In this document: positions 962 to 25,365 of the stretch, piece by piece
Position numbering within the stretch: position 1 is the first letter of the stretch
Layout: each line of letters opens with the position of its first letter
Assembly (NCBI GenBank): GCA_009829735.1
Contig: CM020619.1
Location: forward strand, 5,720,083 to 5,784,082
Source of the DNA: Pyropia yezoensis
Lineage: Eukaryota > Rhodophyta > Bangiophyceae > Bangiales > Bangiaceae
Length of the DNA: 64,000 nucleotides
Direction: 5' to 3'
The notes under the pieces: generated by a model
Seen by the model: the letters and a program-made list of their open reading frames with translations, nothing else
What the model was told of the DNA's origin: nothing
Database searches by the model: none
Position numbers and translations under genes: made by a program

Positions 962-3268
962 TCAGTGGGTAGACCTACTGCCCGAGGGAGGCCACTCACG
1001 CGTAAGCGCGTACACCTCCATGCTGCACCGGTCGGCAACCTCACGACGGTCAATCACCCGAGTTACCTCGGTGCATAGCTGGACGAGGGTGCTGCGGCCG
1101 GCCTCCACGTCCGCCAGAGCGGACTGGAGGCGGTCCAGCACGCCACCGAAGCAACGCGCGGACCCAACCAGCGCAGCACCTGGGGGGATATCCCCCCAGC
1201 TAACAGAGAGACCCTCCCGCATCGCGCGGGCAATAAGGGCGTCAACGCCTTCATGCCAGAGACGGGGACCCCCATCACGCATGACAGGGGCGGAAGGCGA
1301 CACTGGCGCAGCCAGAGGAGCCACAGGAGCCGACACGGCTACCACCGGAGCCGGTGGCACCTGATACGAGGCCCGGTAGGATCCTACTGAAGGAGCTCCA
1401 CCGTAAACCCGGCGGGGCTCGGCGCGAGGACGGGACACCTCACGCTCCCCACCCGCAGAGCCCCACTCTCGGGGACGACGGCCAACCGCCACCGGTATTG
1501 GGTTACCGAACCACGGGGCGAGGATCTGAAGAGGGTCATGGATAACCATGGGAATACCCAGGTCAGCAACAGCCTCGGTGGACGCCCACCCATGGCAATT
1601 GGGCTCACCCGGCTGAGTACGCCGGATACGCAACGAGTGACGAGGCAAGGGGGAAGCCCCAGCCTGCGGGTCCCGGTACGGGGGAAGGGCCAACACCCCA
1701 GCCCAGTTCACGGCATCGTGAGCAGCCAGCAGAGCCTCGAGCTCCCGGGCCAACCCGGTCTTGGTGGCTATCATGTCCACGCCCAACTGCGCGATGTGCC
1801 GACGGACACCCGTCGGAAGATGAAACAGGCGCCCCTGCCGCCGGACGGCCAGCAAAAAGGAAGAAGCCTGCCCGAGGGTAACCTCAAGGGTGAAGGTACC
1901 CTGCAACGGGTGGACCGGCCGGGAGGCCAACACACTCCGGAAGTATCGGAGACAGGAACCGATGTCAAACCGGAAAGCAGGGGCGGGTTCCCACCCCTCC
2001 TGCCACAGAGGCGGGCGCACGGCAGTGTACACCGGCGCACGACCGTTACCGGTCTGCAACGCACACGTTATATCGGTGCGGAACGCATCCGCCATGATAC
2101 CATGGTTGCGTCGCCAACTCGACGCCGACTTCAACCCCGCCATGGGCGGGTACGGAGCCGTCAACGTCAGGTACGGGGATACCCCCGGGAAGTACTCGAA
2201 CCCGGGATACCGGCCGGTATCACCCACCGTCTCCCCAAACACCACCGGCTCCGCAGCCGCCGCAATCCCCCGAGCACTAGCCGGGTAGTCAACCTCCCGC
2301 GGCAGCGCAGGAGCAATGAAGTCGCGTATCCCGAAGGCAGAGTCGAGGTAGACCTCACCCCGCCCCATCCGGGTGCGCCAGAGCTGCGCATGCCGGTCGT
2401 CCGGCTGGCTCAGGATCCAATGATGTTCCACCCGGACCGCGTTCGGCTGGTTGACCGGCCGCACCAACTCCCTCTCCCAACTCGGGTCGACCTTGGCGCG
2501 CCGGGAGGTCGCTCCAGGGAGACGCATCAGGTGGAAACCCACCCGCATCCGCCCCGCGGAGTCCATCGACTCATGCACAGTCATGCCTCGAACCCGAGCC
2601 ACCAAGTCGGACATCGACAGGGCGGGTTGACCTGCCGCTGAGGCGACGCCGCCACCCAACGGGGCAACCCGGGCAGGACCAGGAAGAATCGGGGGCGCCG
2701 AGGGAAGCCCCACCGGCAGATGCGCCGGCACCGGAGGAGCACGGGGCCGAGGAGGAATAAGAAGGGCGGGCGCCCGCCCGGAGTAACTCTCGGAGTCCAC
2801 CGCCATCGGGGTAGATACCTCTTCACCACCAAGCGCCCGCGGCACCGCGGGCAGAGCGGCGCCACCACCCGGGCCCGACGTGGGCACCACCGGGGCAGCA
2901 GGGGTAGACCCGTCACCCACTGCCACGGACACACCCACCGGGCGGGCACCCGCACCGTCTTGACCCGCCGGCCCGGCCGGGGCGCCGCCACGACCATCCG
3001 ACACGCCGGCGACGCCGTCTTGAGGTAGAGCCGCGCCGGCACCGGCGACAGAAGCCATCCGGGCCGCCGGAGAAGTAGGGGTAGAGGCCACCGCTGCGCG
3101 CGGTTGCCTGCCACCCGACGGAGCCGTAGTGCCGCTGCACACGGACGACAATCCGCCCGGCGCACCTTCCGGGGCCACACGAACTGTCACCCGGTCGCCT
3201 TCGTCCTCCGACGAGCTCTCCAAGAAGCACTCGGCGGCGGTGGCAGAGACGGGAAAGTCGTCCACCAT
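962..3268 (-). CDS. Antisense accessory gene of element A (aORF-A), unknown function
   Basis: This is an uninterrupted frame of 768 codons on the strand opposite gag-pol, ending head-on with pol. The start chosen is ATG at 3268-3266; a GTG codon precedes it. The N-terminus is acidic (SSSEDEGD). Residues about 30-215 are Ala/Pro/Gly-rich and probably disordered. Residues about 215-600 have normal globular composition rich in aromatic residues (examples: EHHWILSQPDDRHAQLW, FEYFPGVSPYLTL, FRFDIGSCLRYF). A Pro/Ala linker and a short C-terminal globular segment (LWHEGVDALIARAM) follow. There is no signal peptide, membrane segment, zinc finger or polymerase motif, and no family is recognised. Intact length in an otherwise mutated element suggests selection. 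Genes of similar size occupy the same place and strand in B and C. Confidence 0.75.
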   Translation of the reverse strand: MVDDFPVSATAAECFLESSSEDEGDRVTVRVAPEGAPGGLSSVCSGTTAPSGGRQPRAAVASTPTSPAARMASVAGAGAALPQDGVAGVSDGRGGAPAGPAGQDGAGARPVGVSVAVGDGSTPAAPVVPTSGPGGGAALPAVPRALGGEEVSTPMAVDSESYSGRAPALLIPPRPRAPPVPAHLPVGLPSAPPILPGPARVAPLGGGVASAAGQPALSMSDLVARVRGMTVHESMDSAGRMRVGFHLMRLPGATSRRAKVDPSWERELVRPVNQPNAVRVEHHWILSQPDDRHAQLWRTRMGRGEVYLDSAFGIRDFIAPALPREVDYPASARGIAAAAEPVVFGETVGDTGRYPGFEYFPGVSPYLTLTAPYPPMAGLKSASSWRRNHGIMADAFRTDITCALQTGNGRAPVYTAVRPPLWQEGWEPAPAFRFDIGSCLRYFRSVLASRPVHPLQGTFTLEVTLGQASSFLLAVRRQGRLFHLPTGVRRHIAQLGVDMIATKTGLARELEALLAAHDAVNWAGVLALPPYRDPQAGASPLPRHSLRIRRTQPGEPNCHGWASTEAVADLGIPMVIHDPLQILAPWFGNPIPVAVGRRPREWGSAGGEREVSRPRAEPRRVYGGAPSVGSYRASYQVPPAPVVAVSAPVAPLAAPVSPSAPVMRDGGPRLWHEGVDALIARAMREGLSVSWGDIPPGAALVGSARCFGGVLDRLQSALADVEAGRSTLVQLCTEVTRVIDRREVADRCSMEVYALTREWPPSGSRSTH

Positions 3269-3908
3269 CACCTCTTCCCCCTCCTCAAGCAGGAGGTCGT
3301 CCTCGCCCCCGGGTACCTGGGGGTCCGAGATGGTGAAGCCGGGGTAGCAGGGGCGCCCCGTGCCGAAAAGCCCCAGCCGGCTCGACCCGGTATAAGGAAC
3401 GCTCGCGGGGATGAGCCAGGAAAGCGCGGGCAGCCGCGCTTATAACCACACCGCTCGGCACGAACGATACGGCAGCGCGGGACGACCCGCGCCAGCCGAG
3501 CTACGAGGGCGCTCCACCCAGGAACCTGGATCGGGGCCACGCCCCCCCCACACGGGGTAAGCAAAGGGGGTCACCCCCAACCGCCCCCACGCCACGCGGG
3601 CAACCCCCGCCACTCACTCAATCGTCCCGCGGGAGGGGCCCCCCTACCACCAGGCGCCTAATGGCGGATCCGCTTGTACCACCCCTCGGAAAGGGGGGTC
3701 GTGAACAGAAACCCGCATCGGGAAATTCAACGGTCCGGAAAACGGATCGTGTGTGAACCACACAAAGGGGGGCACCCCCCGCAGAAAACCTCGAAAAGGG
3801 GTGTCTTTCGCGACAGGGCGCAAAGCCCCACCCGACTGGTAAACGGTCACGCGACCCACTTACATTCGGTAACCCGAATGCAACTCGACCCGAGGACAAG
3901 CCGAATCT
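3269..3908 (-). promoter_or_regulatory. Leader/promoter region of aORF-A with TATA-like box
   Basis: This stretch between the antisense gene and the 3' LTR has no convincing gene. On the minus strand a TTATAA hexamer at 3440-3445, followed by a GCGCGG run, lies about 170 bases before the antisense ATG. A similar TATAAAAGCGCG box occurs in the equivalent place in the B-like fragment (4689-4695). Promoter function is inferred. Confidence 0.4.
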
Positions 3909-3920: not shown

Positions 3921-4268
3921 TGTAGCAATATGGTCGGCCGTATTGTGACCCTAATATTAGGGGGGCTACTTCTAGCCCTTAAGTTTCAATTTGAGAGTCC
4001 GTACTGGTCACGGTATCTATAAGTTACGTATGACCAGAGGGACTTGCATCTTGGGGCGGAGGGTAGTTAGTAGTGTCTCCGAGGGTTTATAACGAGGGAG
4101 CCAGCGGCGAATCCACCGCCGGACATAATAGAACAACAAACCCCTCCCATTTGGGCTCCCATCTTGGTCCCGTAACTTGCGCTCCAAGAACAGGAACCCT
4201 GGCCTCCCGGTGACGTTGATGCCGATCCCGCTTGGTGAGTGTTCCCTGATAGTGGATGTGCAGCGGAT
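3921..4268 (+). repeat. A-element 3' LTR
   Basis: About 348 bases, beginning TGTAGCAATATGG and matching 57570-57917 along its whole length with scattered substitutions and no net length change. It contains a TTTATAA box near 4087-4093, a plausible core promoter. After 4268 the sequence changes to an inverted, truncated B-type LTR. Confidence 0.85.
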
Positions 4269-4641
4269 ACCTATTGTGCTACAGCAATCCCCCCACTACG
4301 AAACAAGAAGATAGGGTGTGGGCCAACAGTTTCTTGGTCGGGACGGGAAGGCGACGCCAAGCCCCGCTGTCCCTCCCCTTATCCCCCCAAGGTGCCGTCA
4401 GAATCTCGCCACTCAGAATATCCCACCCCAGCACCTGCCCACCGGGCCACACGAAAATTCAAGACGATAAAATGCAGAAGACCCTCCAATCCATGTTGGA
4501 TTTACTTTCAAGCAAAGTATCCCTGACTTAGGGAAATTCGGGATCAAATGCAAGGGGAGAAACGGGTCAGACCAGATGTCCCCCGTCCGACATACTGGTA
4601 TGGCGCGTTCTGCCCCCCTGGGAGGGGCCAGTTCTGCCACA
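4269..4641 (-). repeat. Truncated, inverted B-type LTR
   Basis: Recognisable by the shared core (CCCGTCCCGACC block, AAACAAGAAGAT, AAATTCAAGACGATAAA on the plus strand) in inverted order relative to 14346-14815. The far end is missing where it joins the A LTR. Confidence 0.8.
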
Positions 4642-4688
4642 CTCCCCTTTCCTCAGTTACGACCGACCCGGTCGGCCCTGAGAAGGGG

Positions 4689-4963: not shown

Positions 4964-5505
4964 ATGGTGTACTCCGGGGTGGAGTCTGACTTCCTGGACG
5001 AGCGTATAGAAGACACGCCTCGCGTTGTAGCATCCGTCGGGACTTCCGGCGAGAGTTCCGCGGCTGCCCCGGGGGATGAGATGCCTGCTCCACCCGACTT
5101 TGAGTTGGCGGCGGGCTCTCCCCCGGAGGTAGGCCCCGCCACTCCACGGGAGGCCCTGGGGAGGTGGTACTATCCACCCTGGCCCCTGTACAAGGAGGGC
5201 CTGACGATTATCCGCTGCGGCCGACTTGGCCCTGCGATGGATCGCGTCTGGGGGCGCCTCCGGGAGAAGTTCCCTCGTAGGGTAGGATTCCGTCCCGATT
5301 TCAAGACGGACCAGTTTGCCGGCCTGGACGACGAAGAGGTCGAAGACTTGCAGCGGGTCAGGAACTTGTTTACCTGCGGGGGTACCACCGAGGGTTCCGG
5401 CGACGTGCCGACCTTCACGTGGGACGTGGTGGCAACTTGCCCCCCGTTCATCAGTACCTCTGTTCCGAGCGTCCATCACTTCGACATGCGGATGGAGAAG
5501 GACAC
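4964..5505 (+). pseudogene. Start of B-type antisense gene (aORF-B'), truncated
   Basis: An open frame from ATG 4964 encodes an acidic, probably disordered start and then a globular region (RWYYPPWPLYKEGLTIIR, FRPDFKTDQFAGLDDEEVED, DVPTFTWDVVATCPP, VHHFDMRMEKD). The last parts match the B antisense gene (DLPTFTWDAVATRP, THHFDVRMEKD). It is cut inside the HFDMRMEKD segment by the C LTR. Upstream codons in the same frame are open, so a slightly earlier start cannot be ruled out. The copy shows what the damaged N-terminus of the B gene should look like. Function unknown. Confidence 0.65.
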
Positions 5506-6077
5506 TGTGGTATGGAACTTGATCCTCTAAGACACAAGTCAGTATCCCTCGGGGGAAAGGGACAGGTAACACAGATAGGAGAACTACGAGAGTAGTGTGC
5601 CTGTTGCCTCACGTGCCTGCTCGCAGAGCAAACAGATACGCACGGTAGTGCACATGGGGAAAAGGAAAGCAAACGCGCAGTTGTCTTTTTCCCTGAGGGC
5701 GCGGGCCAAGTGCGCCTCGCTGTCCCTCTTAACGTGCATCTGGGGGAGCCTCGGCACGTTGGCCAGGTAACTTCCCCATACCCCCGAGTGGCCCCGACCC
5801 GAGTCTAACCTCGTCAGGTCGGGGGCAATTATCACTACTGATTCTATTCCCACTCACTAATTTCACACTCAAATCCTCTCAAATGTAGTCCCTCACACAT
5901 ATGCAAAAACCCATCGGAAGTCCCTCTCTCACGTGTGGACAGCGTAGTCCACCGCATCCCACTGCCGGGGACGGGCCACGGGCGTCAATCATCCTTTCAC
6001 GGCGGACGTGTCCTGGCACCTGGTGCCCCCTGGTCGCCATCGCGGGTAGGCGCCAAGTGAGGGCCAGGAATGCTACA
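5506..6077 (-). repeat. C-element 3' LTR
   Basis: Plus-strand limits are TGTGGTAT and ATGCTACA, so on the element strand it runs TGTAGCAT to ATACCACA. Close copies lie at 25839-26410 and 32008-32578. It resembles the 32008 copy more than the 25839 copy, for example in the CATCCTTTCACGGCGG block. Confidence 0.85.
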
Positions 6078-6243: not shown

Positions 6244-7090
6244 TGTGAGGAACCACCCACACTTGGGCAGCCCTCAACGTACTCGTGATGGTGTCAGCGA
6301 CCCATGCCAGCCAATAGGGCGACAGGGTGCGGGGAAGAGGATGGAGGTGGTGACGGTGGTGGGTCTGGGGAAGAGGACGGCGCGACGTCGGTGGTGATCG
6401 AGAGGGTTCAAAGGGTGAAGGTCGTCTTTGGTCTGTGTCTGTGGTTGCCCTTCCGGTCTCCCCTGGTGGCGCCGACACTCACGCACTATATACTCGCGTC
6501 GGGGCCCCCGAGGTGCCCCAAAGCATGCGTTTCCCCGTCGCTCCACCGGTAGGCACAAAACGGCCCAAAAACAAAGCATGGCTCTCAGAACAAAGCATGG
6601 GCGGGCGTGCGCACTAAAGGAGTGCAGCCCCAGCTTGCCCCAAACGAATGGGTCCGGCGTGCGGCGCCTAGGGCGCCGCCCCAGCCGGCTCCAGACGCCA
6701 GTCGGCCCGAAGGTCCGAGAGGCGTGTAAGCACGATTCGATCGAGTCGGCCGAATCGGCCAGCCGGCTAGCCAGTCACATCGCTGCAATGCTGCAGCGAG
6801 GACATTTTAACGGACTCGCCAGCTGTGGCAGATGTGGCTCGTCATGGGTGCTGACGGTGGCGCTTTTCGACAGGCCATGATGGGCTGTCGATGGCTGCTG
6901 TCGTGCGGCCGGCAGACACCGTGAGACAGCGGCTGACTCATCTTGCGTCTGGAAAGTACACCGTGTCATGCCCCACAACACAAGGAGTTGATCCATGTTG
7001 CCAGGAGTTGGTTCGGCAGGATCTGTAAGGAGAAGTCCCAGATATTATCCCTTAAGTATTAGGCATGGGAATAGGGGGGAAATCCTTACA
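6244..7090 (-). repeat. D-element 3' LTR
   Basis: 847 bases, TGTGAGGAACC to AATCCTTACA on the plus strand, nearly identical to 12851-13697. Confidence 0.92.
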
Positions 7091-7100
7091 CCTCCCCCCC
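7091..7100 (-). other. Polypurine tract of element D
   Basis: GGGGGGGAGG on the minus strand lies directly between the chromodomain stop codon TGA (7103-7101) and the LTR start, so the pol gene ends with no 3' spacer. Confidence 0.75.
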
Positions 7101-10100
7101 TCAGGACGTGCGTCGAAGGAAGGCGTCGAGAACCTCAGGTGCGTTGTCGAGGTCTTGCGTGGTTAGCCAGGTGTTCCCACTGACATCGCAGCCTTTCCAC
7201 TTGACCAGGTACTGCAGTCGTCCACGGCGTTTTCGTGACCGAATAATGGAGTCCACTTCGTACTCAACCGATCCGTCCGGAAATGCTACCGGAGCTGGAG
7301 CGGGAGGAAGTCGACCATACGGATCAGCGTTGTACGGCTTGAGTAGACTGGCGTGAAAGCGTTGTGCACCTTTCGATCAAGGACTGCTTGAGGCAGATCC
7401 AGACGGAACGTAACATCATTGATGTTTTCAGTGACTCGGTATGGTCCCGAAAACTTGGGCATCAACTTGCGAGCGCCCTGGAAGGCGTCCGGCATAAGGT
7501 TCCTGGTGCTCAGGAGCACGAGGTCGTCGACAGCGATCGTACATGGTCGGCGTCGACGGTTAGCGTACGCCGAGCGCGTCTCATTGGCCTTCTTGATAGC
7601 GGTAATGGCAGTCTCCTGAGCTTTTTGCAGACTGCTTAGCCAATCTGAGACTGCTGGTAGTTTCGATTCCTTGCTCTCGACGATGTCGACAGGTACTGTC
7701 CTTGGTTCAAAGCCGTAGTTCAGGAAGAATGGGGAGTACGTCGTGACCGCATTGGGTGACCGGTTGTAAGCTACTTCTGCAGCAACAAGGAAGAGAGGTC
7801 TTAATCACCCTGATGATGGTTCACGAAGTTTCGCAGGATTTCTTCAATCTTCTTGTTCATGATCTCGGTTTGTCCGTCCGTCTGGGGATGATAGGCTGAA
7901 GATGCCTTGATCTTGACCTTTAGAATTTCGGTGAGCGACTGCCAGAAGTTGGAGAAGAAGATACGGTCTCGGTCGCAGACGACGTCGGATGGTAGACCGT
8001 GATGACGGTAGACGTGATCATGGTAGAGTTGCGCTACGACTGGTGCAGTACAGTCGGGCTTCATTGGTGCTAGTCGAATCATCTTCGACAGTCTGTCCAC
8101 AATGACGTAAATGCCATTGTGGCCCCTTTGGGTCAGTGGAAGAGGGGTGATAAAGTCCATGGAGACACTTGCCCATCGTTGGTTCGGTGGATCTAGTGGT
8201 TTGTGGTGACCCAGAAGTGAATGGGTGCCAGCTTTGTTCCGCAGGCACAAATCACATGATTGTACGTATCTTTGGATGTCCTTCCGTATTGTCTTCCAGT
8301 AGTATTTGGAAGCAATAGCGTTGGTGCTTTTCTTAACTCCCATATGTCCTTGGCTTGGGATGTCGTGGTAGTCATGGAGTAGTCTTTGGCGTAGAGTACC
8401 AACGGGGATGCACGTACGGTCACCTCGTTTCAACAACCTCATGTGAAGCCGGTAGGGAGATACCGGGTCTTTGACTAGGTTGGCAAACTCGGGATCCGCG
8501 TTGTACTCTTGGTCTAGGGTAGCAAGGTCTTGATCACTTTGGCTTATGGTCATGAGGTTGTTGATTTCAGTTTTCTTGGGTAGGCTTTCGATGGTCTTGG
8601 TTAGCACGCGACTAAGGAGATCTTGATTGGGAGCGTGCTTATCGGGGGCGTCTTGTGGTTGCCTTGAAAGAGCATCAGCTACGGGGTTGGAAATGCCCTT
8701 GATGGGGATGATCTTGAAATCGAATTGCTCCAACAGCTCTAGCCACTTGACTTGGCGGTCGTTGAGCTTCTCTTGGGTTTTCAAGTACCTTAGGGACTCA
8801 TGGTCGGTGTGCACCTCGAACGACCTTCCATGGAGGTAGCAGCGCCAGTGTCGAATGGCTTGTACAACTGCGAGCAGTTCGCGCTCACGGATACTGTAGC
8901 GCTGTTCGTGGATGTTCAGCGTCAATGAGAAGTAGGCCACTGGGCGTCGTCCTTTTCCGTCATCTTGTTCAAGGACAGCGCCAACAGCATACCCACTGGC
9001 ATCTGTGGAGACGAAGATTGGGCACGTCTTGTCGAATGGCCTCAGTACTGGTGCACTTGTCGTCAGGGTTTGTAGTTGCTCAAAAGCCTTCTCGGCGTCA
9101 GAGTTCCATTCGAAGTCGACGTTTCCAGTAAGCCTTGTGAGGGGTGCAGCCACGGATGCCATTCCCTTGATAAATCGACGATAGAAGTTGACCATGCCGA
9201 GGAAAGATTGCACATCTTTTTTGCTCTGTGGCGTTGCCCATGATCGAATGGCTTGGACCTTGTAGTCCTCCATAGAGAAGCCTTCGTTGGAAATGACATG
9301 GCCGAGGTAGTCCACAGTTGTTCGCGCAAATTGGCATTTGCTGAGTTTGGCGTAGAGCTTATGCTCTCGCAGCTTGTCCAGGGCTTGCCTTAGGTGCTTT
9401 AAATGATCTTCGTAAGCTTCACTGTAGAACAGGATGTCGGCGAGGTAGACGCAGATAAACTCGTAGAGATAGGGTCGGAAGACGTCATTCATTAGGTTCA
9501 TGAAGACCGCGGGGGCATTTGTTAGCCCAAAGGGTAGCACGGTAAATTCGTAGAACCCGTATTTTGTTCGGAACGCCGTCAGTGGGATAGTATCAGGGTC
9601 AAGCCGGACCTGGTGGTAACCTGATCGGAGGTCGATCTTCGTGAAGTACTTGGCCTTTCGCAGTTGGTCGAAGATGTCGTCAATTCTTGGTAAGGGATAT
9701 GCGTTCTTGATAGTGGCTTTGTTCAATGCTCAATAATCGATGCACATTCGCCAGCCACCGTCCTTCCTTGCGGCAAAGAGTACAGAAGAGCCCCACGGTG
9801 AGGCACTTGGTTGGATGAACCCCTTTCGTATTAGGGTTGCAAGTTGTGTCTTGAGTTCATCGAGTTCCCATTCAGATAGGCGATAAATGCCACTGCGACG
9901 TGGTTGAGCGTCCTCCGTAAGCTTGACGCTAAACTTGTGACTGCGTTCAGGAGGAAGTCCATCGGGAAGCTCTTCCGGGAAGACGTCGGCGTACTCGTTG
10001 AGAATCTCTTGGACGTCATTCTTGTCTTCAGCTTCTCCCATTTTGATCGCATTGATGTCAAAGGTGCTGGAAGGATCTTCGGATTGCAGGTAAATGGCGA

Positions 10101-10638
10101 AGACAGGAACTTTTTGAATAAGGTCCTTGGCGAGGCGTTGCATACTAATCAGGCCATGGGGTTTCTTGAGGGAGGCAGTGATGGAGATGTTCTTTTGGTT
10201 AAACTTGAAGGAGATCTTGTTCTTCTTGTTGTTGATTTTGGCGTCCTTGTCGTCACGCCATTTCTTTCCGAGGATGATGTCGTACGCACTTAGGTCGCAT
10301 ACAGCAAACCGAAGACGTTCTTGGTATGGGCCGATGTGAATCTCTAAGGGTTCAATGGTCTCTGCGAGGACGTGGGAGCGACCATCGGGCATGTTAGCCG
10401 CGAAGTCCGTTTCTTTCGTGGTCACATTCAGGGTATTCACGAGGCGCCTTGATACGACGTTAATGGGAGATCCGTCGTCAAACAGCACCTTAACAAGATG
10501 TCCATTGACAGAGGCAGTGGAAAGCAGAAGCCCGAGACGCGGGCCTTCAAATGGTGACGACATGTTTTCAGGAACCGAAGAAGCGTCTGGCACCGGTTTT
10601 GATGACGGTTGCTGCTTCAGTTCCGCTGGCCTTTTGGG
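7101..10638 (-). pseudogene. D-element pol: protease, RT, RNase H, integrase, chromodomain
   Basis: Aspartic protease is near 10500-10430 (LFDDGSPINV; DDG rather than the usual DTG/DSG). RT follows (RMCIDY then ALNKATIKNAYPLPRIDD); its active-site motif reads YLAD at about 9445-9434, so the first catalytic Asp is replaced by Ala. RNase H has STDASGYAVG and HTDHESLRYL. Integrase has the H-H-C-C finger (ending CDLCLRNKAG) and catalytic segments SMDFITPLPL, CDRDRIF and TDGQTEIMN. A chromodomain (YLVKWKGCDVSGNTW) is near 7110-7265. Breaks are a TGA at 9732-9730 where DYRALN is expected, a TAA at 7803-7801, and a 1-base frameshift near 7345 inside VHNAF. The frame is entered from gag by a -1 shift. 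Confidence 0.85.
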
Positions 10639-11486
10639 CAGTCCTTGGCCATATGTCCTTTCTCACGGCAGCGGAGGCAGAGGCCTTCACGCATGCAGCG
10701 CTGACGCTCTTCAGGCGTGAGTTTCTCGACTTTGATGCTGGAGATTTCCATGGGAATGACACCCGTCGTGGATGGCCTCGCAGATTTGCCGCCGAGGTGC
10801 GTCGAGGCACCAGCCTTGGCAGCCTCCACGCGCAGAGCGTCAGTCATGAGAGATTCAAGATCCGAGTAGGTCTTGAGACAAAGAGCCTGCCAGATGTCCC
10901 GCTTCAAGCCTCGGGTGTAGCGGTCAATCTTCTCGGCTTCCGTGACGTCAGCGATGTCCAAGAGGACGCTCAGAAACGTCCTGTTGAACGTTCCGACGTC
11001 TTTGATTTGGCGCCACGAGTGCAGCTTGTCTCGTGCCGCTTGTGTCTTGTTCAGTGGACTGAAGCGGCGAATTAGAGCAGAACGGAAGGATTCCCAGTTC
11101 GGGACAGCTGTAGTCTGACTGTAGATCTTCCACCAGTCGAACGCTTCGCCGTCGAGGAAGGTGCAAGCAATACTGCACGCATCGTCGGGGTCACTCAGTC
11201 GCACATAGAAATCCATATGCGAGCACCACGCTTCAACCGTCCAAGGTTTACCGGAGAAAGCCACGGGTTTGTTCGGCCTCGCGGATTTCATGCCACTAGT
11301 AGTGGCCCTGGCCTTGGCTTCGGACAGTTGCTGCTTAGCGTCGGCTAGTTCCATCTTATGAGCCTCGAGTTGTTCGCTCATTTGCGCGACAAACGCTGTA
11401 AGCTGGGTCCAGGCTGCCATGGTCGGTGCGTTCGAGCCCGAGCCCGGATTGGCCCGGTTGACACCCCCTGGGATTGGTGCATCCAT
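10617..11486 (-). CDS. D-element Gag with CCHC zinc knuckle
   Basis: An intact 289-residue capsid/nucleocapsid protein. An N-terminal coiled-coil-like stretch (about residues 30-60, LEAHKMELADAKQQL) precedes a retrotransposon-gag domain (FSGKPWTVEAWCSHMDFY, FDWWKIYSQ, WESFRSALIRRFSP). A single zinc knuckle lies near the C-terminus (CLRCREKGHMAKDC, CX2CX4HX4C). It packages the element RNA. The stop (10619-10617) lies 12 bases after a candidate -1 slip site. Confidence 0.9.
   Translation of the reverse strand: MDAPIPGGVNRANPGSGSNAPTMAAWTQLTAFVAQMSEQLEAHKMELADAKQQLSEAKARATTSGMKSARPNKPVAFSGKPWTVEAWCSHMDFYVRLSDPDDACSIACTFLDGEAFDWWKIYSQTTAVPNWESFRSALIRRFSPLNKTQAARDKLHSWRQIKDVGTFNRTFLSVLLDIADVTEAEKIDRYTRGLKRDIWQALCLKTYSDLESLMTDALRVEAAKAGASTHLGGKSARPSTTGVIPMEISSIKVEKLTPEERQRCMREGLCLRCREKGHMAKDCPKGQRN
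10632..10638 (-). promoter_or_regulatory. Candidate -1 ribosomal frameshift heptamer, element D
   Basis: On the minus strand CCCAAAA is phased as C CCA AAA in the gag frame, just upstream of the gag stop. The pol frame is the -1 frame and is open from here on. The X XXY YYZ pattern fits known slippery sites; use in vivo is inferred. Confidence 0.55.
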
Positions 11487-12848: not shown

Positions 12849-12850
12849 CA

Positions 12851-14815: not shown

Positions 14816-14817
14816 TT

Positions 14818-14934: not shown

Positions 14935-16865
14935 ATGGCTAGTTCGGACCCCCCGTCGTCTGGGGAGTACGCGGGTGACGCACGTACTTCAGTGCCTTTG
15001 AATACTGGTGAGACACAGGTAGGTTTACCTGGGGTCGCAGAGGGACTAGAGGTCCCTCAAGCCAGCAGGACTGGAAGTATGGGCGGGCAACAGGCCACCC
15101 CGACTCAGTCGGGAGTTCACTCGGGTGACACTTCTGATGTGGGTGGGCCGAAGTCTGGCCACGGTGTGGTTCACTCAACGGGAACGTCCCAAGGTGAGAG
15201 GACTGCCCCGCGGGTTCCACTCGAGTGGGAGCCAACTGTGGCTTGGAGCCGTCGCCAACAAGGCTTTCGGAGGACGGCGGACCTCCGTTGGTCGGCGATG
15301 GGCTCGCGCCCATGCCCCCGGTTGAGACCCTTGAGGATCGTGGTTACCCCTCAGGTGGACTCCCGGAGGCGGACCGAGACTCAATTGGAGTCGACAATCC
15401 ACTCCTCGCGCAAACTGTCCGTCGGGAGGCGACCAATGTGTTACGGCAGACTTTGCCGGACCTTGTGGTCACGATGACGAATACTATTCTGAATCAGATT
15501 CTGGCGAGTTTGCCATATGGCCTTAATGTCCAGACCGGATTGGGGCTTTCGAGCCCGCAGGCACAGGGGGAATCCCCCCTTACGCCTATCTCGGGTCGCC
15601 CCGAACCGGGGGCGACCCCTGTGACTCCCCACGAGGGAGCCACACCATTCTCGGTGGGGCGTACGCCCTTCACGGGGGAGTTTCCCTCGAAAACGCCGGC
15701 GGCCACACCAAGCTCGCCGCGGCAGACAGGAGCCACTGCGGGTCAACTTACCCCAGTGCCTCAGCGGCGTTTCCCTCAATGTGAGGTGCCGCCCAAGATC
15801 CAGGTAGCCAACCCGGTCTACCAGAGGATCTTTGACTTTGAGACCTACGCCCTCCACAACAAGTCGGTGGCGTGTGGTCCTGTCCAGGCCCGAGCCATGG
15901 GCCGTGCCAAGAAGAGTGCACTTCACTCTTTTGGGCACAAAGCGGAGTGGGATGGAAATCCCCCCCTCCGCGTCTTTGAGCTTCTACGTCGTTTCACAAA
16001 AGCCTGTGACGACAATGCCATAAGTGAAGGCATGGCTTTCTATATGCTACAGGAATTGACGAAGGGCGACCTACAGACAGAACTTATGTCCGTCATGCCC
16101 TGTTCCTCAAGTGGAGGCGCTGGTGAGGTGACGTCCTATTTGGAGCTCGTCGACTGGTTGTTGAGAGCCATGGTTGATGAAGCAGCGTTGGCTTCTCAGG
16201 TCGAGGAGTTTACGCAAGCTCACCAGGAAGAGAATGAGGACGAGTTGTCCTTTGCGGAGCGGGTTCGTAAGCTCAACAATCTTTGTGGGTTTCTTCATCC
16301 ACAAGCTGTGGTGAAGAGTCGGTTTGTGGAGGGACTTTATTGGTCAGTCCGGATGGAGACCCGGGAGCATATCACTGCCCGGGCAACCCTGGCCGAGTTG
16401 GCTAGGTTCGCCTACCACAGAGGCGAGGCCTACCGCAAGTTGCGGGAGGAACAACGCCAGGAGCGTCAGGCCGAGTTGGCCAAGGAACGTGAGGAAGCGC
16501 GCTAGGCCAGAGAGTTGAGAGAGGCACGCCGAATCCGCAAGGAGAGGGTGGTAGCTGCCGTGGGAACTTCCCAGGGTATCCCTTCGTCATCCCCAGTCGG
16601 GAAGACCCCTCCGGGAACTGACAATCGGTGTTGGAACTGCAACTTTGATGGACACTGGGCATATGATTGCCCCAAGTTGAGTAAACGCATTCAACAACTT
16701 GTTAGGAATGCGAGAAAGAGGTCGGCTACGAACGAAGTACGTTCACGCCGCCAGGGTGGACCTCGACCGGTAGTGGCGGTCGCCACACCCTCGGCGGAGG
16801 GGGCGGACACGTCGTCCTCGGACTCGTTGTCTTCCACTTCGCCCTCAGATTCAGACGCCAAGTAG
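14935..16865 (+). pseudogene. B-element Gag with CCHC knuckle (one frameshift, one TAG)
   Basis: The likely start is ATG 14935 (MASSDPPSSGEYAGD). The reading frame changes between about 15225 and 15290, after PLEWEPTVAW, to a frame that stays open through the capsid region (RVFELLRRFTKACDDNAISEG, DWLLRAMVDEAALASQ, ENEDELSFAERVRKLNNLC). A TAG at 16503-16505 interrupts a charged region that continues in the same frame. A CCHC knuckle follows (CWNCNFDGHWAYDC), then a Ser/Asp-rich tail to TAG 16863-16865. The capsid region resembles that of element C (LLRFVKACNDNDVSVG). Pol overlaps in the -1 frame from about 16685. Confidence 0.8.
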
Positions 16866-16867
16866 GC

Positions 16868-16874
16868 AAGAAAC
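16868..16874 (+). promoter_or_regulatory. Degenerate frameshift heptamer, element B
   Basis: A AGA AAC followed by GAA TGA lies at the position and phase where elements A and C have G GGA AAC GAG UAR. Two G-to-A changes would explain the difference. A TAG just upstream (16863) now ends gag first. Confidence 0.4.
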
Positions 16875-16876
16875 GA

Positions 16877-19800
16877 ATGACCGTTGGAGCTGGCCGTCCG
16901 AAGCTCACAACGGCAGCCTCGGCCAAGTGGGTCAAGAGGACGAACCAACCCTGCCGGATACTGCGGCGACCTAAGGGAGTCCGCCCACCTCGGGTAGGAC
17001 TCCCCAAGAACGTAAACCCACGTCGGGTCATCGCGGTGCTGACGGGTGAGAACTTCCAGGTGGCTGGACGGGTGCAACTAGCCCCCGGCCGTTCCTGCTG
17101 TGCCCGTATCGTACTTGATACCGGGTCAGGAGCCTCCTTGATACGCAAGTCGCTATTACCAAAGGAGATGAAGCTCCAACGCTGGAAGTCTAAAGCTGAC
17201 CATCTGATCGACATCGATGGTGGGGTACTGCCCATCGTTGGCGCCGTGACCCTACCAACTAGGTTGGGGACCCATGAGGTCGACGTGACCTATGGAGTAG
17301 TTGAGAATATATCGGTACCCCTGCTTCTGAGTACCCCTTATGTTGTAACACAAGTGCCTTTGATTTGTGGCCCTGAGTATTGGGTCAAGTTGATGAATGG
17401 GGAGAGCATCCCCATCCTTCGTAAGGGAAAGTCTGTGGCTCCTGTGACAGTCTCACAGTCGAAGCCTGTTTGCTCTGTGAGAGAAGGGCTTACTGCTACC
17501 CTGCGCTTAGCCCGTACAGTCACGTTGCCCCCCAACTCGGTGCACGTTGACGTTGTAACTGATTATACGGGGAGCGGGTTGGTGCACCCTCACCCCCGTC
17601 TTGCTCGCAAGCACCAAGTGCATGTTGCCCTTGGCACGATGGACTCCAAAGCCAGGGTTCCGTGGAGGATCGAGGTTATGAACCTGAGCTCGTCGCCCAA
17701 GTACTTCAAGTCGGGAGCCAAGTTTGGCTATATCGACCAACATGAGGGACCGGTAGTAGCGGTCACCCTCAACGCGGGCGCGAGTAGCGACCCGAAGTCC
17801 GGAAAGGAGAAGCACCAAGCCAAGTCGGCCGCTTCTTCTCGGCCCCATGTGAACATGGAGAGTGTTCCACCCAGGTTGAGGGTTCAAGTTGAACGCCTCC
17901 TGAACCAATATCACAAGTTGTGGGATGGTCAATTGGGACTCATGAGAGCCACCCAACACCGGATCGAGTTGAAACGCGGTGCACCCCCTATACACCAACA
18001 ACCGTATAGGGGAGGGCCCCGTTCAAGGGCCCTCGTTAAGGAGCAAGTCGCTCGCTTGGAGGCCCTCGATGTGATCGAGGCCAGCAACGCCGAGTAGGCG
18101 AGTCCGGTGGTTAGCGTCCCCAAAGTTGATGGGACCCCACGGTTCTGTATCGACTACCGTAAGCTCAACGAGAGCACGGTGAAGGACAGTTATCCCCTAC
18201 CTAGGATGGACGAATGTCTGGACTCTCTGGGGGAGGCAAACGTGTTCTCTACCCTCGACTGTAACGCGGGGTATTGGCAAATTCCCATTGCCCCAGAAGA
18301 CAGGCATAAAACTACCTTTACATGTCACTGTGGTACCTACCAGTGCAAGCGACTACCGTTTGGACTGTGGAACGCGCCGGCAACTTTCCAGCGCGCTATG
18401 GACATGAATCTGGCCGGAGTACGGTGGCAGATCTGTCTCGTGTACCTAGACGATATCATTGTGTTCTCCCGAAGTCAGGAGGAACACATTGACCATCTTG
18501 GCCAGGTGTTCAAGCTACTTGCTGACGCCGGTGTGTCTCTGAAGGCGAGTAAGTGCCACCTCCTCACTCAAGAGGTGGAATACTTGGGACATATTGTCCG
18601 TCCGGGGCGCCTCAGTGCCACCGAGAAGAACTTGAGGGCCATCCGTAAGGCTCAGTACCCCCGGACCCAGACCCAGATGAGGAGCTTCCTCGGGATGTGT
18701 AACGTGTACCGACGTTTCACCAAGAGCTTCGCCAAGGTGGCAAAGCCGTTGAATGAGCTAGTTTCCTCAACGCTACCGAAGAACCTGCCTCCCCCAAGTC
18801 GGGTGGAGCAGGAATCCTTTGAGTCTCTTCGGGACCTTCTGCTGAAGCCCCCTATCTTGGCTATTCCCAGGTTGGGAGGGCGCTACATCCTGGATGTGGA
18901 CGCTAGCTACGACCAACTTGGTTGTGTGTTGCTTCAGCAGCAGCCGGACAAGGAGTACTTGCCGGTGGGATACTTCAGCAAGGGGCTGAACTCGGCTGAG
19001 AAGAACTACGGAGTCACCGAGCTGGAAGGACTCGCAGTGGTGTGGGCGGTGACTTCACTTCGTCACTACCTAGAGGGTGAGAAGTTCCTCATCCGCTGTG
19101 ACCACCGCGCGTTGCAGTTCATCTTCAAGACGGATTGTACGAACACCCGCCTGAACAGTTGGAGGGTGCGACTGGCACCCTTCAACTTTGATATTGAGTA
19201 CCGACCTGGCAGGCAACATGCCCTTGCCGACGGCCTTTCTCGGGTACCTTGCGAGGGGCTGGACACTAACTCGGTCGATAAGGACATCCCCATCGTGGGG
19301 GTAGTCACGCGCTCGGGTCAGGCGTTGGACCCCGAGGCGCCAGGGAACAAGAAGTACTTGCCCCTGTCCTGGGACGAGGTGGTGAAGGGCCAGGCCGAGG
19401 ACCCCTTCTGCAAGTAGCAGAGGGATACGCTGGATACGGTGGCGGAAACGCGGTTCTTTATCGAAGACGATGGCCTCCTCTTGAGGAGGGGGGTATTCCA
19501 GGGGACCGAACAGCTTGTCGTCATCGCATCCCTCAAGGACAGTATCCTTGAGAGGGAGCGTAATGCTTCCACAGGTGGACACCTGGGGTCTAGTAAACTG
19601 TACCAGACCCTGAGGACAAGGTACTACTGGCCGTCCATGGTGGTGGACATCGACAGTTGGGTGGCTGCCTGCACAAATTGTGCGCAGAACCGTCTGATGG
19701 AACGGCGGCCTACTACGGCTATGTTACTGTTCCCGGCCAACGAGCCCTTTGCCGCGTTGGCAATGGACATCCTTGGGCCACTGCCAGTGACCGAGGAGGG

Positions 19801-20971
19801 CAACCGGTACCTCCTGGTCATCTGTGATCGCTTCACGAAACTTACGCGAGCGATCCCACTGGCGGAGATCACGGCCATGTCGGTCGTGTCAGCCTTCCTA
19901 GATCACTGGGTTGCCGCGTATGGCGTCCCGGACAGTACACTATCGGACAATGGACCGCAATTTGCGTCTGTACTGTTTCAGGGAGTGCTGGATATGTTGG
20001 GGGTTAAGGCAAACTATGCCACCCCCTACCACCCACAAACTAATGGGCAGGTGGAGCGCTTCAACAAAACTATTGTTAGGCAGCTGCGCCACTATGTGAG
20101 TGAGCACGTGAAGACGTGGGACCAATACATTTCTATTCTTACTACCGCCTACAATTCGCAGGTTCACTCATCTACCGGGGAAGTACCCCTCGCTTTTGTG
20201 ACCCCCCGTCGTGTGCGGTCTATTGCCGTGCGGCGGTCGCTCCCAACTAGGGAGGGTGGTGGCAGTACGCCTACTCCTACTGAGATTAAGGCGGAGTTCG
20301 CTGCTAGGCTTGAAAAACTCATCCCTAAAGTCAGGGCTGAGATGGACAAAGCACAAAAGCGCTACAAGCGTACCTTTGACAAAAAGGTGCGCAATGCAAA
20401 GCACGTCCCCGAACAGGGTGACTGGGTACTGGTTCACTCACACACCCCATCTGGGGGTAAGGTGGTATTCCAGACTCAGGGGCCGTACCAGGTCCTTCGT
20501 ACTGATGGGCGGCGCTTCCCCATCGAAAATGACGATGGGGTCCGCACAGTAAACGGACAGGATGTGGTCAAAGATGCACCACCGCCAGCAGGCGACCCAG
20601 CTTGGGCGCGTGCGCTGGAAGCGTGGCGTTAGCCCTCGCTGCCTGCGGCCAAACATGGCCCGCAGGAGTACGTGTTCGATAAGTTCATCGACCACGGATG
20701 GGATGACGACACTAACCGCCTCATGTTGAGGGTGTGTTGGTTCGGCTATAAGGCCAAGGATGATACGTGGGAATATGTGGAGGACCTTCCCGCTGAAAAG
20801 GTCCGGGAATACTGTGCCCGGAATGAGATAGACCCTAACAACCCCCCTCAACGTGAGGGAAGGCCGGGTAACAGTGCCAAGGGAGTGCTTCAAGTCGAAG
20901 TGGTACGCAGAGTGGCTTTTAACTACAGCCCTAACCCTCACACTCTCACAACAAGGGCAGCTGCCAACTAG
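16877..20971 (+). pseudogene. B-element pol: protease, RT, RNase H, integrase, chromodomain (three TAG codons)
   Basis: One continuous frame contains protease (VLDTGSGASLIRK near 17115), RT (YRKLNESTVKDSYPLPRMDE; YLDDIIVFS near 18440), RNase H (DVDASYDQLG, CDHRALQFI, ADGLSR), integrase with the H-H-C-C finger (GGHLGS ... CTNCAQNR), the triad in AMDILGPLP, LSDNGPQFAS and NGQVERFNK, and a chromodomain at 20680-20860 (LRVCWFGYKAKDDTWEY). In-frame TAGs lie at 18095 (Trp expected in SNAEWASPVV), 19415 (between RNase H and INT) and 20630 (between INT and chromodomain). Catalytic residues are intact. The final TAG shares CTAG with the stop of the antisense gene. Confidence 0.88.
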
Positions 20972-22910
20972 GCATGCATGCTAGACTCTCCAACCCCACG
21001 GCCCTCGCCCTCACGTGAAGGCGAGCGGCAAGACCCACGCCGATAACGTTCCCCACCAGTCGGCGGGGCCGGCGGCTCCAAGTCGGAACCGTCGCGCCCC
21101 TCACGGTCGCGCAAGTGGCGACTACCGCGGCTACCCTTCCGCTTGGTCTTGCGCGCAAGTTGACGACGCAGACGCCGGAACAACTCCGACTCTGACGGAG
21201 TAGAGGACTCCGAGACGGAATAAGACAACTCTTCTTCCGACACGGCGGGAGAGCGCCGCGAGTGACGGCGACGACGGCGAGGAGGCGAGTAGGCCCGGCT
21301 CGCCCGACGTTTGCCACGCCCAAGTGGGGCTGGCTGGGGTACAATAGCCCCGATGCGAGCCAACTCGGCCGTCATAAACTCCGCCACCGACTCGCAACTC
21401 GCGGTCGCCACCGCAGTACGAACGCGCCCCTCAAGTTGAGAAGTCTCTGAAACTTGAAGGGTTGCGGTCGACGCCGCCAACCAGGAAATGGTGCGCACCA
21501 ACGTGGTGACCATCATCTCTGAGGTCAGAGGCGTGGCCGGTAACACCAACTTGGGGTAAACCGTGAGAAGAGTGGCCCCCAAGTTGAGGGACACCGGGGT
21601 GGACGCCTCAACGGCCACGCTTATCGGGATGTCCCCGTGCGGCTGGTAGGGGACAGGAGGAAGCGGAAGGGCACGCCGAGGTGGCGGTGCCCGAGTGTAA
21701 CTGCGACCCCTACTCGGGGCCCCCGCAGTGGGCTGAGTCATATGGTCATCGTGAGAGGGCACGGCCATCACTATGGCCTTGTCCGGGGGCGGCGCAGTGT
21801 GGCGATCCACCCCAGAGGCATACGGGTAGTCCCCGATGCCCCGGCCCTCTCGTAGTACCACACAGCCGTCGTGAAGTTCACGAGCGACCCACACGAACTG
21901 GCGAAGTGCGCCATCGTCCTTGGGCCCGCGGGTGGGGCGGCGCAACTTGTGCTCGATGCTCTCCCACTCGATGAACTTGTGGAGGCGGTGCATCTCCTCA
22001 AGTAAAATGAGTTGTCCTGATGAGCACCCCTCAGCAACTAGCTGAGGGGAGAGCTGCTCCAAACCTTGGATAAGCCGAAGGGGAAGATGCCAGAGCATCC
22101 CCCGCCGCTGAACACAAGACACCCAGGTCCACATGACCTCGAGGAGCCACTGGGTGGCCAACATGGCCCACACCAGGGGATCTGGGCTAGCCGTCAACAT
22201 GACGGAGCCGAACTGGTCGAGCAACCGGGGTAGCAACGCAGGGAACCCGTAGGGGACCTCAACTTGAGGCCACCACTCAGGCTTCTTGGGGTAGTCCTGC
22301 TCCTTACTGGCAGCGGACTGCTGCGGAAACTCAAGTTGAGCCGAGTTCACCAAGTAGGGACCTCGCCGGAAGTCCTTCTCCATCCGCACATCAAAGTGAT
22401 GAGTGTGCGGATCGGCCTCGTTAAGGTACAAGGGGCGAGTTGCCACCGCGTCCCAAGTAAAGGTCGGCAAGTCGCCGGGACCCGGGACAGTTTCCCCGCG
22501 GTCCACCATGGCCTTAGCCCGCTGTACGTCTTCGACCTCCTCATCATCCAGGAAGGCAAACTGGTCCGTCCTAAAGCCTGCAGGGAACCCGACCCTACGA
22601 GGTTACTTCTCCTGTAGGCGGTCTCATACCCGACCCATCGCTGTGCCAAGTCGGCCACAGCGAAGAATTGTCAACCCCTCCTCATATGGAGGCCAAGCGG
22701 GGTAAAACCACCGCCCCAAGGCCTCACGTGGGACGACTTGGCCCGCCTCCGGGGGAGATCCCGCCATCAACCCAAAGCCGGGTGACGCGGGAGTCCCATC
22801 CCCGGAGCAACCACAGAGCCCCCGCCGGAAGTCCCGGCGGGCGCTGCACCGTAGGAGGTGTCCTCCATACGTTCGTCAAGAGAGTCAGTCGCCACCCCCG
22901 GGGTCGCCAT
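20968..22910 (-). pseudogene. Antisense gene of element B (aORF-B)
   Basis: The frame runs from ATG 22910-22908 (MATPGVATDSLDERMED; compare MVYSGVESDFLDERIED in the fragment at 4964) to TAG 20970-20968. The first 130 codons hold a 1-base deletion near 22790 and TGA and TAA codons near 22630-22600. From 22509 down 513 codons are open. That part has a globular region (DLPTFTWDAVATRP, HTHHFDVRMEKD, WWPQVEVPYGFPALL, WLLEVMWTWVSC), a Pro-rich linker, and a strongly basic Arg/Ser tail (SPPRRRRRHSRRSP, RRLRRQLARKTKRK) suited to nucleic-acid binding or nuclear import. No known family recognised. The last four bases overlap the end of pol. Confidence 0.72.
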
Positions 22911-23246: not shown

Positions 23247-23716
23247 TGTGGCAGTATTGACCCCCAGGTAGGGGGGCAACTCGTGCCATGCAAGGGGCGG
23301 CAGGCCACTAGCCTGACCCGTTCCTCCCCCTGCATTTGGGGCCATATTCCCTAAGTTTGGGATAGATAGCTTAGTAGTAAATCCAACTTGGATTTGAGGG
23401 TTTTCTGCATTTATCGTCTTGAATTTTCGTGTGGCCCGGTAGGCAGGTGCTGGGGTGGGAGATTCTGAGTGGCGAGATTCTGAGGGGACCCCGGGGGGAT
23501 AAGGGGAGGGACAGCGGGGCTTGGCCCTGCTTCCCCGTCCCGACCAAAAAACTGTTGGACCACACACCATCTTCTTGTTTGTCAGTGCGGGGATTGCCCC
23601 ACAACAGGGATAGAGTGTGTGCGACTTGCACTTCTTCCGGTTCCCGCCGACACGGGAGGCAGCCCTTGTACACCGCCCCAACTTGGGTGTCGCGTGTGCG
23701 AGAGGTTTTTGCCACA
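23247..23716 (+). repeat. B-element 3' LTR
   Basis: 470 bases, same ends as 14346-14815, followed by the CTGGA target duplication. Confidence 0.93.
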
Positions 23717-23721
23717 CTGGA

Positions 23722-25365
23722 AGTACTCCATGTCTTCGCCGGCGCGGGAGCAAGGCGAGCGACGGGGGTGCCAGCGGGACTACATCGTGAGCTGCAACCA
23801 CCAAGAGTTCTGGAAGATGGACGAGGCAAACCGGGCGGCGTACCACCCCAAGGTCATCCCGCAGCAGCAGGAAGTCGAGATCCCGGTCGGGTTTGCACCG
23901 TCAAGCATCCCCTCCACTTCCTGGACGCGCTCACCCAGGCGTCGATCAAGGGCTTCTTCCACTCGATCCCATACATGATGTACACCTTCGAGATGACAGT
24001 CCTGGCGGCCAAACACTGGCCTCACGAGTTCTTGGTGTATTATGGGCTCTGGCTCCTCTCGGACCTACTGATGGTCTGGACTGTCGAGAAGCTAACCGTC
24101 GACTTCTTGTGCAGCCAGGATGAGGAGTACAAGGAAATGTTACTGGCGATGATCGACTTCCGGCGTCAACTCCCGGTACATGACCAAACCTTCCTGAACT
24201 TAATCGCGGACCAGAATAGCCCGCGTCGGGATGGCTCGGCTTGGGTGCAGGTGGTCCGCCAGAATTCTCGAGCTAAGTTGCAGCTGGCCACGCCGCTGCT
24301 GGCGTGGCCGCAGCTGGGAGGTCTTGCTGTGCCGGCCGCTCTGGACCTGCTGCCGTCTGGTCCGCCGGTACAAGAGTCGGGGCGGGCTGCGGCGGTTGGT
24401 CGTGCGTCTGCAGCTGCTCAAGTTCCTCCGGTTGCTTCTGCTGCGCCGCTGGCTCCGCCTTCGCCGTCGCCGGCTCGTGTGCACCAGGCTATTCCTGCAC
24501 CGGTACTTCAGGCTCCTCCAGCACCGCGCTTGCCTGCCGCGGCTTTTGGCGTTACTCCCGGCGGTATCGTCCGGTCGCCTACTACTCCGGCCTTTCCTCC
24601 TCGGGGGACTTCCACGGCTGGTGGCGGCTCAGTGCCCACCTTCCCGTTGGGTACTCCTGTGTTCGGCGTCGGTCCCAGCCGTCAGGTGTGGCATGCTCAG
24701 GTCGGTTTGAGATTCCGGCTCCGACTCGACGCCTTTCCCGCGTTCGGGTACCCGACTGGTACCTGACTCAAGGTGGCCCGGCGTGCGACCAGTACGACGT
24801 GGGATTGATCGAGGATCATATGGGTCGACTTCCGGTGCAGGTCGAGGGCATCGGGTCTTCCTTGGCGCTGGGCACGTATGCCAGCGTCTTGAACGAGGTG
24901 GTCGACCAGGTGCTTGCTTGTGCTGACAGCGGCCAGATGTCGGACAGTCCGGTGGTTGGTGACCTCCTTGCGACCTTGACCCGGCCCGGCATGGCCCAGC
25001 GCTGGTCAGGAACCTTCTCGAGCTTCCAGGAGCTTTCGTGGGTGTACCTGGCGGAGCGGGAGCGTCCGGCAGCTACTAGTGCTGCTTTGGTGGCGAAGTA
25101 CGTCGAGGCGACTCGGCCGCCTTACTACGTCATCCCGTCATCCTGTGGGTCCCGTCGTGCTGCTGACGAGGCGCTAGGGGACGCTCCCGTGGCGCAGCGC
25201 GCGCGCCGAAAGTTATACTTGAGGGCAAGGAGGGTGAGAGTCCATGGAGAAGGGAAGAGGGAAGAGCCGAAGAGACGGTTTCCTCGAACGGGTGCTTGCT
25301 TGTCTTCTGAGAGTTCCATGCTTGTTGTGCTTGTTTTCCTTGATACACCCGATCCCTTTTCTTAG
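23722..25365 (+). pseudogene. Antisense gene of element C (aORF-C), second part
   Basis: It continues 13715-14345 in frame after the B insertion (KYSMSSPAREQ, CNHQEFWKMDEANRAAYHP, QQQEVEIPVGF). The frame changes near 23895 to one encoding LHFLDALTQASIKGFFHSI and FLVYYGLWLLSDLLMVW, then an Ala/Pro-rich linker, and changes again near 24700 to the frame ending at TAG 25363-25365. The order globular, Pro-rich linker, tail is as in the B gene. EVEIPVGF followed by LHFLDALTQ resembles QVEVPYGF followed by LPRLLDQF in B, which suggests homology. The full gene would have been about 758 codons. Function unknown. Confidence 0.65.

Follow-up and report, generated by a model that had tools for sequence, protein, structure and literature searches.

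Related Ty3-type retrotransposons of Pyropia yezoensis carry a gene convergent with pol ahead of the 3′ LTR

Why do retrotransposons of a red alga carry a large reading frame on the strand opposite to pol, and is that frame a gene? The question is raised by a 64,000-nucleotide stretch of the Pyropia yezoensis genome (hereafter the window), in which the original prediction placed such a frame after the chromodomain in three elements, A, B and C. As described below, in all three a large convergent antisense gene does lie after pol and before the 3′ LTR. The chromodomain matches are weak: PF00385 matches the pol end of B with an E value of 8.9e-5 and that of A with 0.025, both under the curated Pfam cut-off, and the Pfam scan found no chromodomain match in the pol end of C.

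Arrangement of the elements

Element B is a complete LTR element of Ty3 type on the plus strand: its 5′ LTR (14347..14815) and 3′ LTR (23248..23716) are 97.9% identical, and a 5-bp target duplication, CTGGA, adjoins them on the outside. Between them lie a reading frame named gag by its place (15198..16505), pol (16706..20971, encoding RT and RNase H, then integrase, with in-frame stops at 18095, 19415 and 20630 and a weak chromodomain at its end) and, on the minus strand, the antisense gene (20968..22910). The window copy of this gene, read from 22910 to 20968, is interrupted by two in-frame stops (near 22603 and 22624) and differs from relic E (see below) by a 1-bp indel near 22803; in genomic copy L031 it is open for 647 codons from the ATG. 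Both B copies that we fetched keep the order of pol, antisense gene and LTR, and in both pol stops 111 nt short of the antisense stop, so the overlapping stops of the window copy are a quirk of its decay.

The first copy of element A is represented by the end of pol (165..509, plus strand; weak chromodomain, in-frame stop at 162-164), the antisense gene (962..3439, minus strand; 825 codons from stop to stop) and the 3′ LTR (3921..4281, plus strand), just before which lies a G-rich purine tract. The same order is found in 29 of 30 A loci. The start codon of the gene is an ATG at codon 37 (near 3331) in 21 of the 24 A loci with a readable site; this codon has been lost from the window copy, which is why the first ATG left there is at codon 58 (3268). 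A second A-family copy (57570..64000, plus strand) has its 5′ LTR from 57570, a frame in the gag position without a Pfam match (58076-60265), and pol from 60268, which continues past the window end and has protease (weak), RT, RH and integrase all in one frame.

Element C runs on the minus strand, from a 5′ LTR (32008..32578), adjoining a probable primer-site sequence identical to that of B, through the end of pol (25362..25838, with a chromodomain by position only) to a 3′ LTR (5506..6077). Its antisense gene, on the plus strand, is split into two parts (13715..14346 and 23717..25365, the second changing frame twice) by the complete element B, whose target duplication lies at 14342-14346 and 23717-23721. 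The piece at 4964..5505 (plus strand), which had been assigned to element B, instead comes from a distinct B-like relic, E: it is the start of an antisense gene, with its ATG at 4964 and cut at 5505, and part of the relic’s 3′ LTR is found at 4284..4647 on the minus strand.

Element D (6244..13697, minus strand; LTR 847 bp, target duplication CATTG) is also complete and serves as a control. In agreement with the original prediction it has no antisense gene; its 642-codon pol frame lies 710 bp from the LTR. The RTs of A, B and C, which are of Ty3 type, are 55-65% identical to one another and form one clade; that of D, at 33-38%, falls outside it.

Homology of the antisense products

The B and C products had been thought homologous, and they are matched here with an E value of 2e-8, the score of their cores being reached in 0 of 1000 shuffles; a BLAST search with window B against the C pieces gave nothing below E 0.13. 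The A product, previously held not to be alignable with confidence, does align with B: 0 of 1000 shuffles reached the score of the cores, and 0 of 500 that of the genomic copies, which are identical at 92 of 336 positions. BLAST of window B against A gave an E value of 1e-4, and hhalign, with shallow profiles, a probability of 8.6% and an E value of 0.0039; among 12 pairings of A-family with B-family proteins, the score was reached in 0 of 400 shuffles for seven, and in 3, 10, 38, 44 and 103 of 400 for the others. The direct comparison of A and C is weak (5 and 126 of 1000 shuffles for the cores, 289 and 232 of 500 for genomic copies), and hhalign found no match of the C frame to A or B. These alignments support homology of A with B and of B with C; that of A with C would follow through B. 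For the C-terminal parts, the A–C score was reached in 8 of 1000 shuffles and those of the other three pairs in 841-974, and we therefore claim homology for the core only. Between families, the antisense product diverges faster than RT.

Relatives of the antisense product

Relatives in P. vietnamensis share 46-55% protein identity with the antisense product, and a set of 5.8 billion proteins contained at least seven relatives, with the best 8000 candidates scored in part of the searching. None was confirmed among IMG/VR and GTDB genome contigs, and a sequence search of the PDB returned no relative (lowest E 0.39). A Pfam scan gave no match for P0001, P0002, P0003, P0004, P0007, P0010, P0011, window B or relic E, and none of P0001, P0007, P0010 and P0011 matched NCBIfam or PHROGs. 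A DUF6214 hit for P0006 (E 0.014) was under the cut-off, at chance level, and was discarded.

Such a protein might be the product of a captured host gene that the elements carry passively, and LTR elements in plants are known to capture genes (excerpts of PMC7264820). We consider passive carriage improbable: none of the seven relatives from the 5.8-billion-protein set, scored partly among the best 8000 candidates, has a named host function, each of the three clade members in the window has the gene, and its constraint is almost that of pol (see below). As an origin of the gene, ancient capture is possible. No better favoured is the idea that the product is a distant member of Transposase_28 (PF04195), in which case plant and red-algal elements would share one ancient gene. 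Its place and strand are those of the plant Retand antisense ORFs, and its GF-P-L segment may resemble that family; however, PF04195 was not matched at E values up to 10 for P0010, P0007, P0006, P0004 and the A and B core pieces, or at E values up to 1 for P0001, P0002, P0003, P0011, window B and relic E.

Open frames and selection

Whether other genomic copies stay open was a question attached to the original prediction, and for A and B they do: of the copies scored, 29 of 55 in family A and 74 of 76 in family B have no stop in the antisense frame, fractions that are biased upward because the best-scoring subsets were taken. For C, the frame is broken in all three copies read (the window copy and the fetched L033 and L034, in which the order of pol, antisense gene and LTR is present), but an open relative, P0011, exists.

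Selection among copies was measured in family A, and in B against E. In a set of 30 A copies the whole gene has a dN/dS of 0.37, with dN below dS in 435 of 435 pairs, and pN/pS for the core is 0.28, similar to the 0.25 of the pol end in 29 of these copies. For B against E, dN/dS is 0.36, under all 500 neutral simulations (minimum 0.44), so the values near 1 that had been a concern are found in neither comparison. Variants common to several A copies comprise 170 synonymous, 146 nonsynonymous and 0 stop changes (54% synonymous), versus 268, 511 and 19 for private variants (34% synonymous; Fisher 4e-9 and 0.003). That shared variants are free of stops and more often synonymous than private ones implies selection while the elements multiply, relaxed after insertion. 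On the sequence evidence, the antisense frame is a protein-coding gene maintained by purifying selection during element multiplication.

A different view is that the antisense RNA matters, through double-stranded RNA or silencing, and the protein is incidental. Convergent genes can give paired RNAs, as has been suggested for plant elements (excerpts of PMC7264820), but selection acts on amino acids, with dN/dS well below 1 and no stop common to copies, and we rate this view slightly below the two considered above. Much less probable again is that the frame is no gene at all, only a by-product of high G+C content or of constraint exerted on a different frame. The antisense regions do have 64-68% G+C, which lengthens chance frames, and in a frame-by-frame comparison of 16 of the 30 A loci a low dN/dS (0.44) is also found for the frame of the sense strand whose wobble positions coincide with those of the antisense frame. 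However, that frame is not open (its longest pieces are 157 and 154 codons), and the antisense frame stands at 0.37 versus 1.28-1.33 for the other four. The A frame, fully open as first described, reaches 825 codons compared with a maximum of 458 in 500 dinucleotide shuffles of 900-3600; the 543-codon open part of window B likewise exceeds all 500 of its shuffles (maximum 403), and the frame is kept in P. vietnamensis at 46-55% protein identity. The by-product reading is thus largely contradicted. An envelope-like gene, suggested by the location between pol and the 3′ LTR, is disfavoured most strongly, by the opposite strand and by the lack of a membrane-strength segment in five proteins, whose highest 19-residue hydropathies are 1.23-1.54.

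Discussion

We put at roughly three in four the probability that A, B and C represent a red-algal Ty3-type clade with an antisense accessory gene that has its own promoter and perhaps a nuclear, trans-acting product. In these elements the extra protein gene lies tail to tail with pol, antisense to it and ahead of the 3′ LTR, and a promoter in the ~180-590 bp that separate the antisense start from the 3′ LTR would allow transcription independent of the 5′ LTR transcript. In A, a candidate promoter is the TATA-like TTATAAGC (3438..3445, minus strand), ~110 nt upstream of the antisense ATG that is usual in the family, and 24 of the 26 A loci located have a TATAA motif at this place; in relic E, the TATA-like TATAAAAG lies upstream of the antisense start (4689, plus strand). 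These motifs precede antisense starts in A and E only: none was found before the B start (window, L031 and L032) or in 166 bp of C, and the A stretch has two on the pol-sense strand versus one on the antisense strand.

The product, of ~650-790 residues, has Pro/Ala/Gly-rich arms flanking the conserved core of ~220 residues, taken as residues 361-600 of P0001 in A and 90-335 of P0010 in B, with an Arg-rich tail in B and basic runs in P0005, P0010 (RGKRR, RRRRR) and P0011; such runs were not found in P0001 or P0007. The predicted structure of the A product was unusable (mean pLDDT 28.5), so it is composition and analogy that suggest, less surely than the promoter, a nuclear accessory factor that may bind nucleic acid or chromatin in trans. 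Its targets might be element transcription, RNA export or integration, as proposed for Grande gene23, and convergent transcription across the 3′ end may add regulation by antisense RNA.

We see even odds that the family, so far found only in red-algal Ty3 elements and perhaps of an undescribed fold, is antisense through the whole RT clade (RT to 55% identity) and arose separately from the antisense genes of plant and fungal elements. If so, an antisense accessory gene would be a third gene that Ty3 elements have evolved repeatedly, comparable to env on the sense strand. The function of such genes is a subject of research in plant LTR elements, to which the red-algal gene adds a separate, selection-tested case in a lineage remote from plants and fungi. 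The P. yezoensis genome is small and has many very similar B-family copies, on all three large contigs; in it the transcription of the gene, the localisation of its protein and the dynamics of the copies are open to direct measurement.

Grande of maize and RIRE2 of rice are Tat-type elements and are not known to have a chromodomain. Compared by description, they resemble A, B and C in antisense place and differ in being land-plant elements. In both, an antisense ORF lies after pol and before the 3′ LTR; transcription of the Grande ORF, gene23, is driven by a promoter lying upstream of it, and the encoded protein is nuclear (excerpts of PMC7264820). Elements of the Retand lineage with TRP28 (PF04195) antisense ORFs are described as non-chromoviral, with a region of 2.9-6.6 kb, about half of them with tandem repeats; they differ from the red-algal elements, in whose products PF04195 was not found. 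Outside land plants, Boty-like elements of the fungus Botrytis have, again by description, the same arrangement, the antisense gene brtn lying between pol and the 3′ LTR (excerpts of PMC7264820 and PMC8365987). An analogy only is offered by HBZ of HTLV-1 and APH-2 of HTLV-2, antisense genes with nuclear regulatory products (excerpts of PMC11963269), the HTLV antisense promoter being in the 3′ LTR (excerpts of PMC7264820). No red-algal case of an antisense accessory gene was found in the open-access literature, among the matches listed. The arrangement is known from plant and fungal elements; the protein family and the red-algal setting appear new. If the proteins are unrelated to those of plants, the same arrangement arose more than once, and such repeated origin would point to a shared need, for example for a regulator produced separately from the LTR transcript.

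Antisense genes in A, B and C

Sequence comparison of copies showed that the element's minus strand carries a protein gene that is conserved and under selection. In A, one of the three Ty3-type families with this gene, the antisense frame has 825 open codons, against a maximum of 458 in 500 dinucleotide shuffles of the region. The window copy of B has 543 codons open in one stretch (maximum 403 in 500 shuffles); this copy has in-frame stops in both genes, two in the antisense gene (along with a 1-bp indel) and three in pol. The antisense frames of A, B and the first piece of C resemble gag and pol in codon-position composition, with position 2 lowest in G+C; this was not seen in the last C piece.

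Among 30 A copies, dS in the antisense frame was 0.104 and dN 0.039 (ratio 0.37), and every one of the 435 pairs had dN below dS. The B-like relic E (4284-5505) has 179 codons in common with the B antisense gene, at about 74% nucleotide identity, and the dN/dS of that pair, 0.36, lies under every one of 500 neutral simulations, whose mean was 0.79 and minimum 0.44. Neither ratio is near 1, the value that the original prediction named as counting against a conserved gene. Along the A gene, pN/pS was 0.28 in the core common with B (residues 361-600), 0.29 directly ahead of it and 0.36 at the C-terminal end; the N-terminal end, Pro/Ala-rich arm and linker gave 0.49-0.56. For comparison, the A pol end gave 0.25 (29 copies). 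Variants private to a single A copy comprised 268 synonymous, 511 nonsynonymous and 19 stops, compared with 170, 146 and 0 for those in at least two copies (Fisher 4e-9 and 0.003). Shared variants include ones passed through active elements, and private ones are mostly post-insertion; such a contrast, measured for A only, is the trace that should be expected of a working gene encoded by the element.

Copies elsewhere in the genome

The genome searched comprised 107.48 Mb in 11 contigs (window, G000:C2:5720083-5784082), and all copy counts refer to best-scoring subsets of candidates. As had been predicted, other copies retain an open antisense frame: it was stop-free in 29 of 55 A copies (the best 55 of 23,446 first-look candidates scored with the A protein) and in 74 of 76 B copies (the best 76 of 3,562 scored with P0010, a B-family antisense protein for which this genome contains a 100% identical copy). 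Scores against P0010 were identical for 46 of those 76, spread over all three large contigs, suggesting a recent burst of the B family. Both B copies retrieved, 4% apart, have open antisense frames, and in both the pol stop lies 111 nt ahead of the antisense stop. C copies other than the window's own were 84-87% identical to a 371-base C query piece (best 40 of 502 scored). The two retrieved keep the layout with broken antisense frames; the database protein P0011 (583 aa) is an unbroken C-type frame, so an intact one exists somewhere. The order pol end, antisense gene, LTR, with pol and LTR on the same strand, was found in 29 of 30 A loci, the sole exception being L024, where no pol end was found. 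Two A copies 20 kb apart, L014 and L027, have an identical two-codon length difference, perhaps from local duplication.

Relationships among the families

RT identity is 65% for A-B within the B RT core (55% when a longer stretch is taken), 57% for B-C and 55% for C-A; element D, which lacks the antisense gene, stands at 33-38% to these three. The antisense proteins diverge more than RT across A, B and C. Their cores are identical at 55 of 207 positions for A-B and 35 of 133 for B-C, scores reached by 0 of 1000 shuffles in each case; for A-C, 5 and 126 of 1000 shuffles reached the score. With proteins from genomic copies, A-B gave 92 of 336 identical (0 of 500 shuffles) and B-C 0 of 500 twice, and A-C similarity was not significant. 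The proposed homology of the B and C products thus holds for the core, and A, whose relation had been left open, is homologous to B there, so that homology of A and C in the core follows via B rather than from direct comparison. Profile-profile comparison gave a weak match between A and B (probability 8.6%, E 0.0039). Of the relatives seen, the only ones with another species named were three proteins of P. vietnamensis, at 46-55% identity to A.

Layout in the window

Element D is complete (6244-13697, TSD CATTG), and its LTRs (6244-7090 and 12851-13697) are ~98% identical over 848 bp; from its sequence it appears to be a fairly young insertion of a different RT clade from A, B and C. Element B, also complete (14347-23716, TSD CTGGA), interrupts the antisense gene of C; the LTRs of element C lie at 5506-6077 and 32008-32578. 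Immediately inside the 5' LTR of both B and C is TTTGGTGGAGCAGCAGGG, a probable primer site. A C-family solo LTR (25839-26413, TSD GAGTC) sits inside element C, close to its pol end. No target duplication matched between the outer flanks of C (5501-5505; 32579-32862), the right one being an A-type pol fragment (89%), a sign that element C may have undergone recombination or deletion at its ends. Element A is present as two half copies, one with the pol end, antisense gene and 3' LTR (1-4281), the other with the 5' LTR, gag-position frame and pol (57570-64000). Both window ends (1-70; 63932-64000) fall at the identical pol point, so the halves are complementary by chance of the cut. Across 38000-54000, G+C measured in 2-kb windows is 68-85%, and the region has many overlapping frames of great length, the longest of 1105 codons.

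Expression, possible role and known systems

The antisense gene may have its own promoter ahead of the 3' LTR. In A, the usual antisense start has a TATA-like TTATAAGC about 110 nt upstream, and such a motif occurs in 24 of 26 located loci; the A copies are so similar that they would have it in common anyway, which makes this evidence weak, and the pol-sense strand of this A stretch has two TATA-like motifs. The usual ATG is retained in 21 of 24 readable loci and gone from the window copy. Relic E has a TATA-like TATAAAAG; none was found for the B or C gene.

By analogy with Grande gene23, which has a promoter of its own and a nuclear product (PMC7264820), the protein would most likely serve the element as an accessory factor in the nucleus. 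The C-terminal tail of P0010 is Arg-rich, and none of five antisense proteins tested has a membrane-strength segment; a structure model supported no role and opposed none.

A 2012 survey of the P. yezoensis sequences of that time reported no retrotransposon chromodomains among them (PMC3350952). Among the matches listed from the open-access literature, we found no red-algal antisense case of this kind. Antisense ORFs placed as in A, B and C are described for Grande, RIRE2, Retand, PvRetro13 and the fungal Boty (PMC7264820; PMC11963269; PMC8365987). The antisense domain of Retand, PF04195, was not found in our antisense proteins. The gene in A, B and C therefore combines a known arrangement with a protein family so far unassigned.
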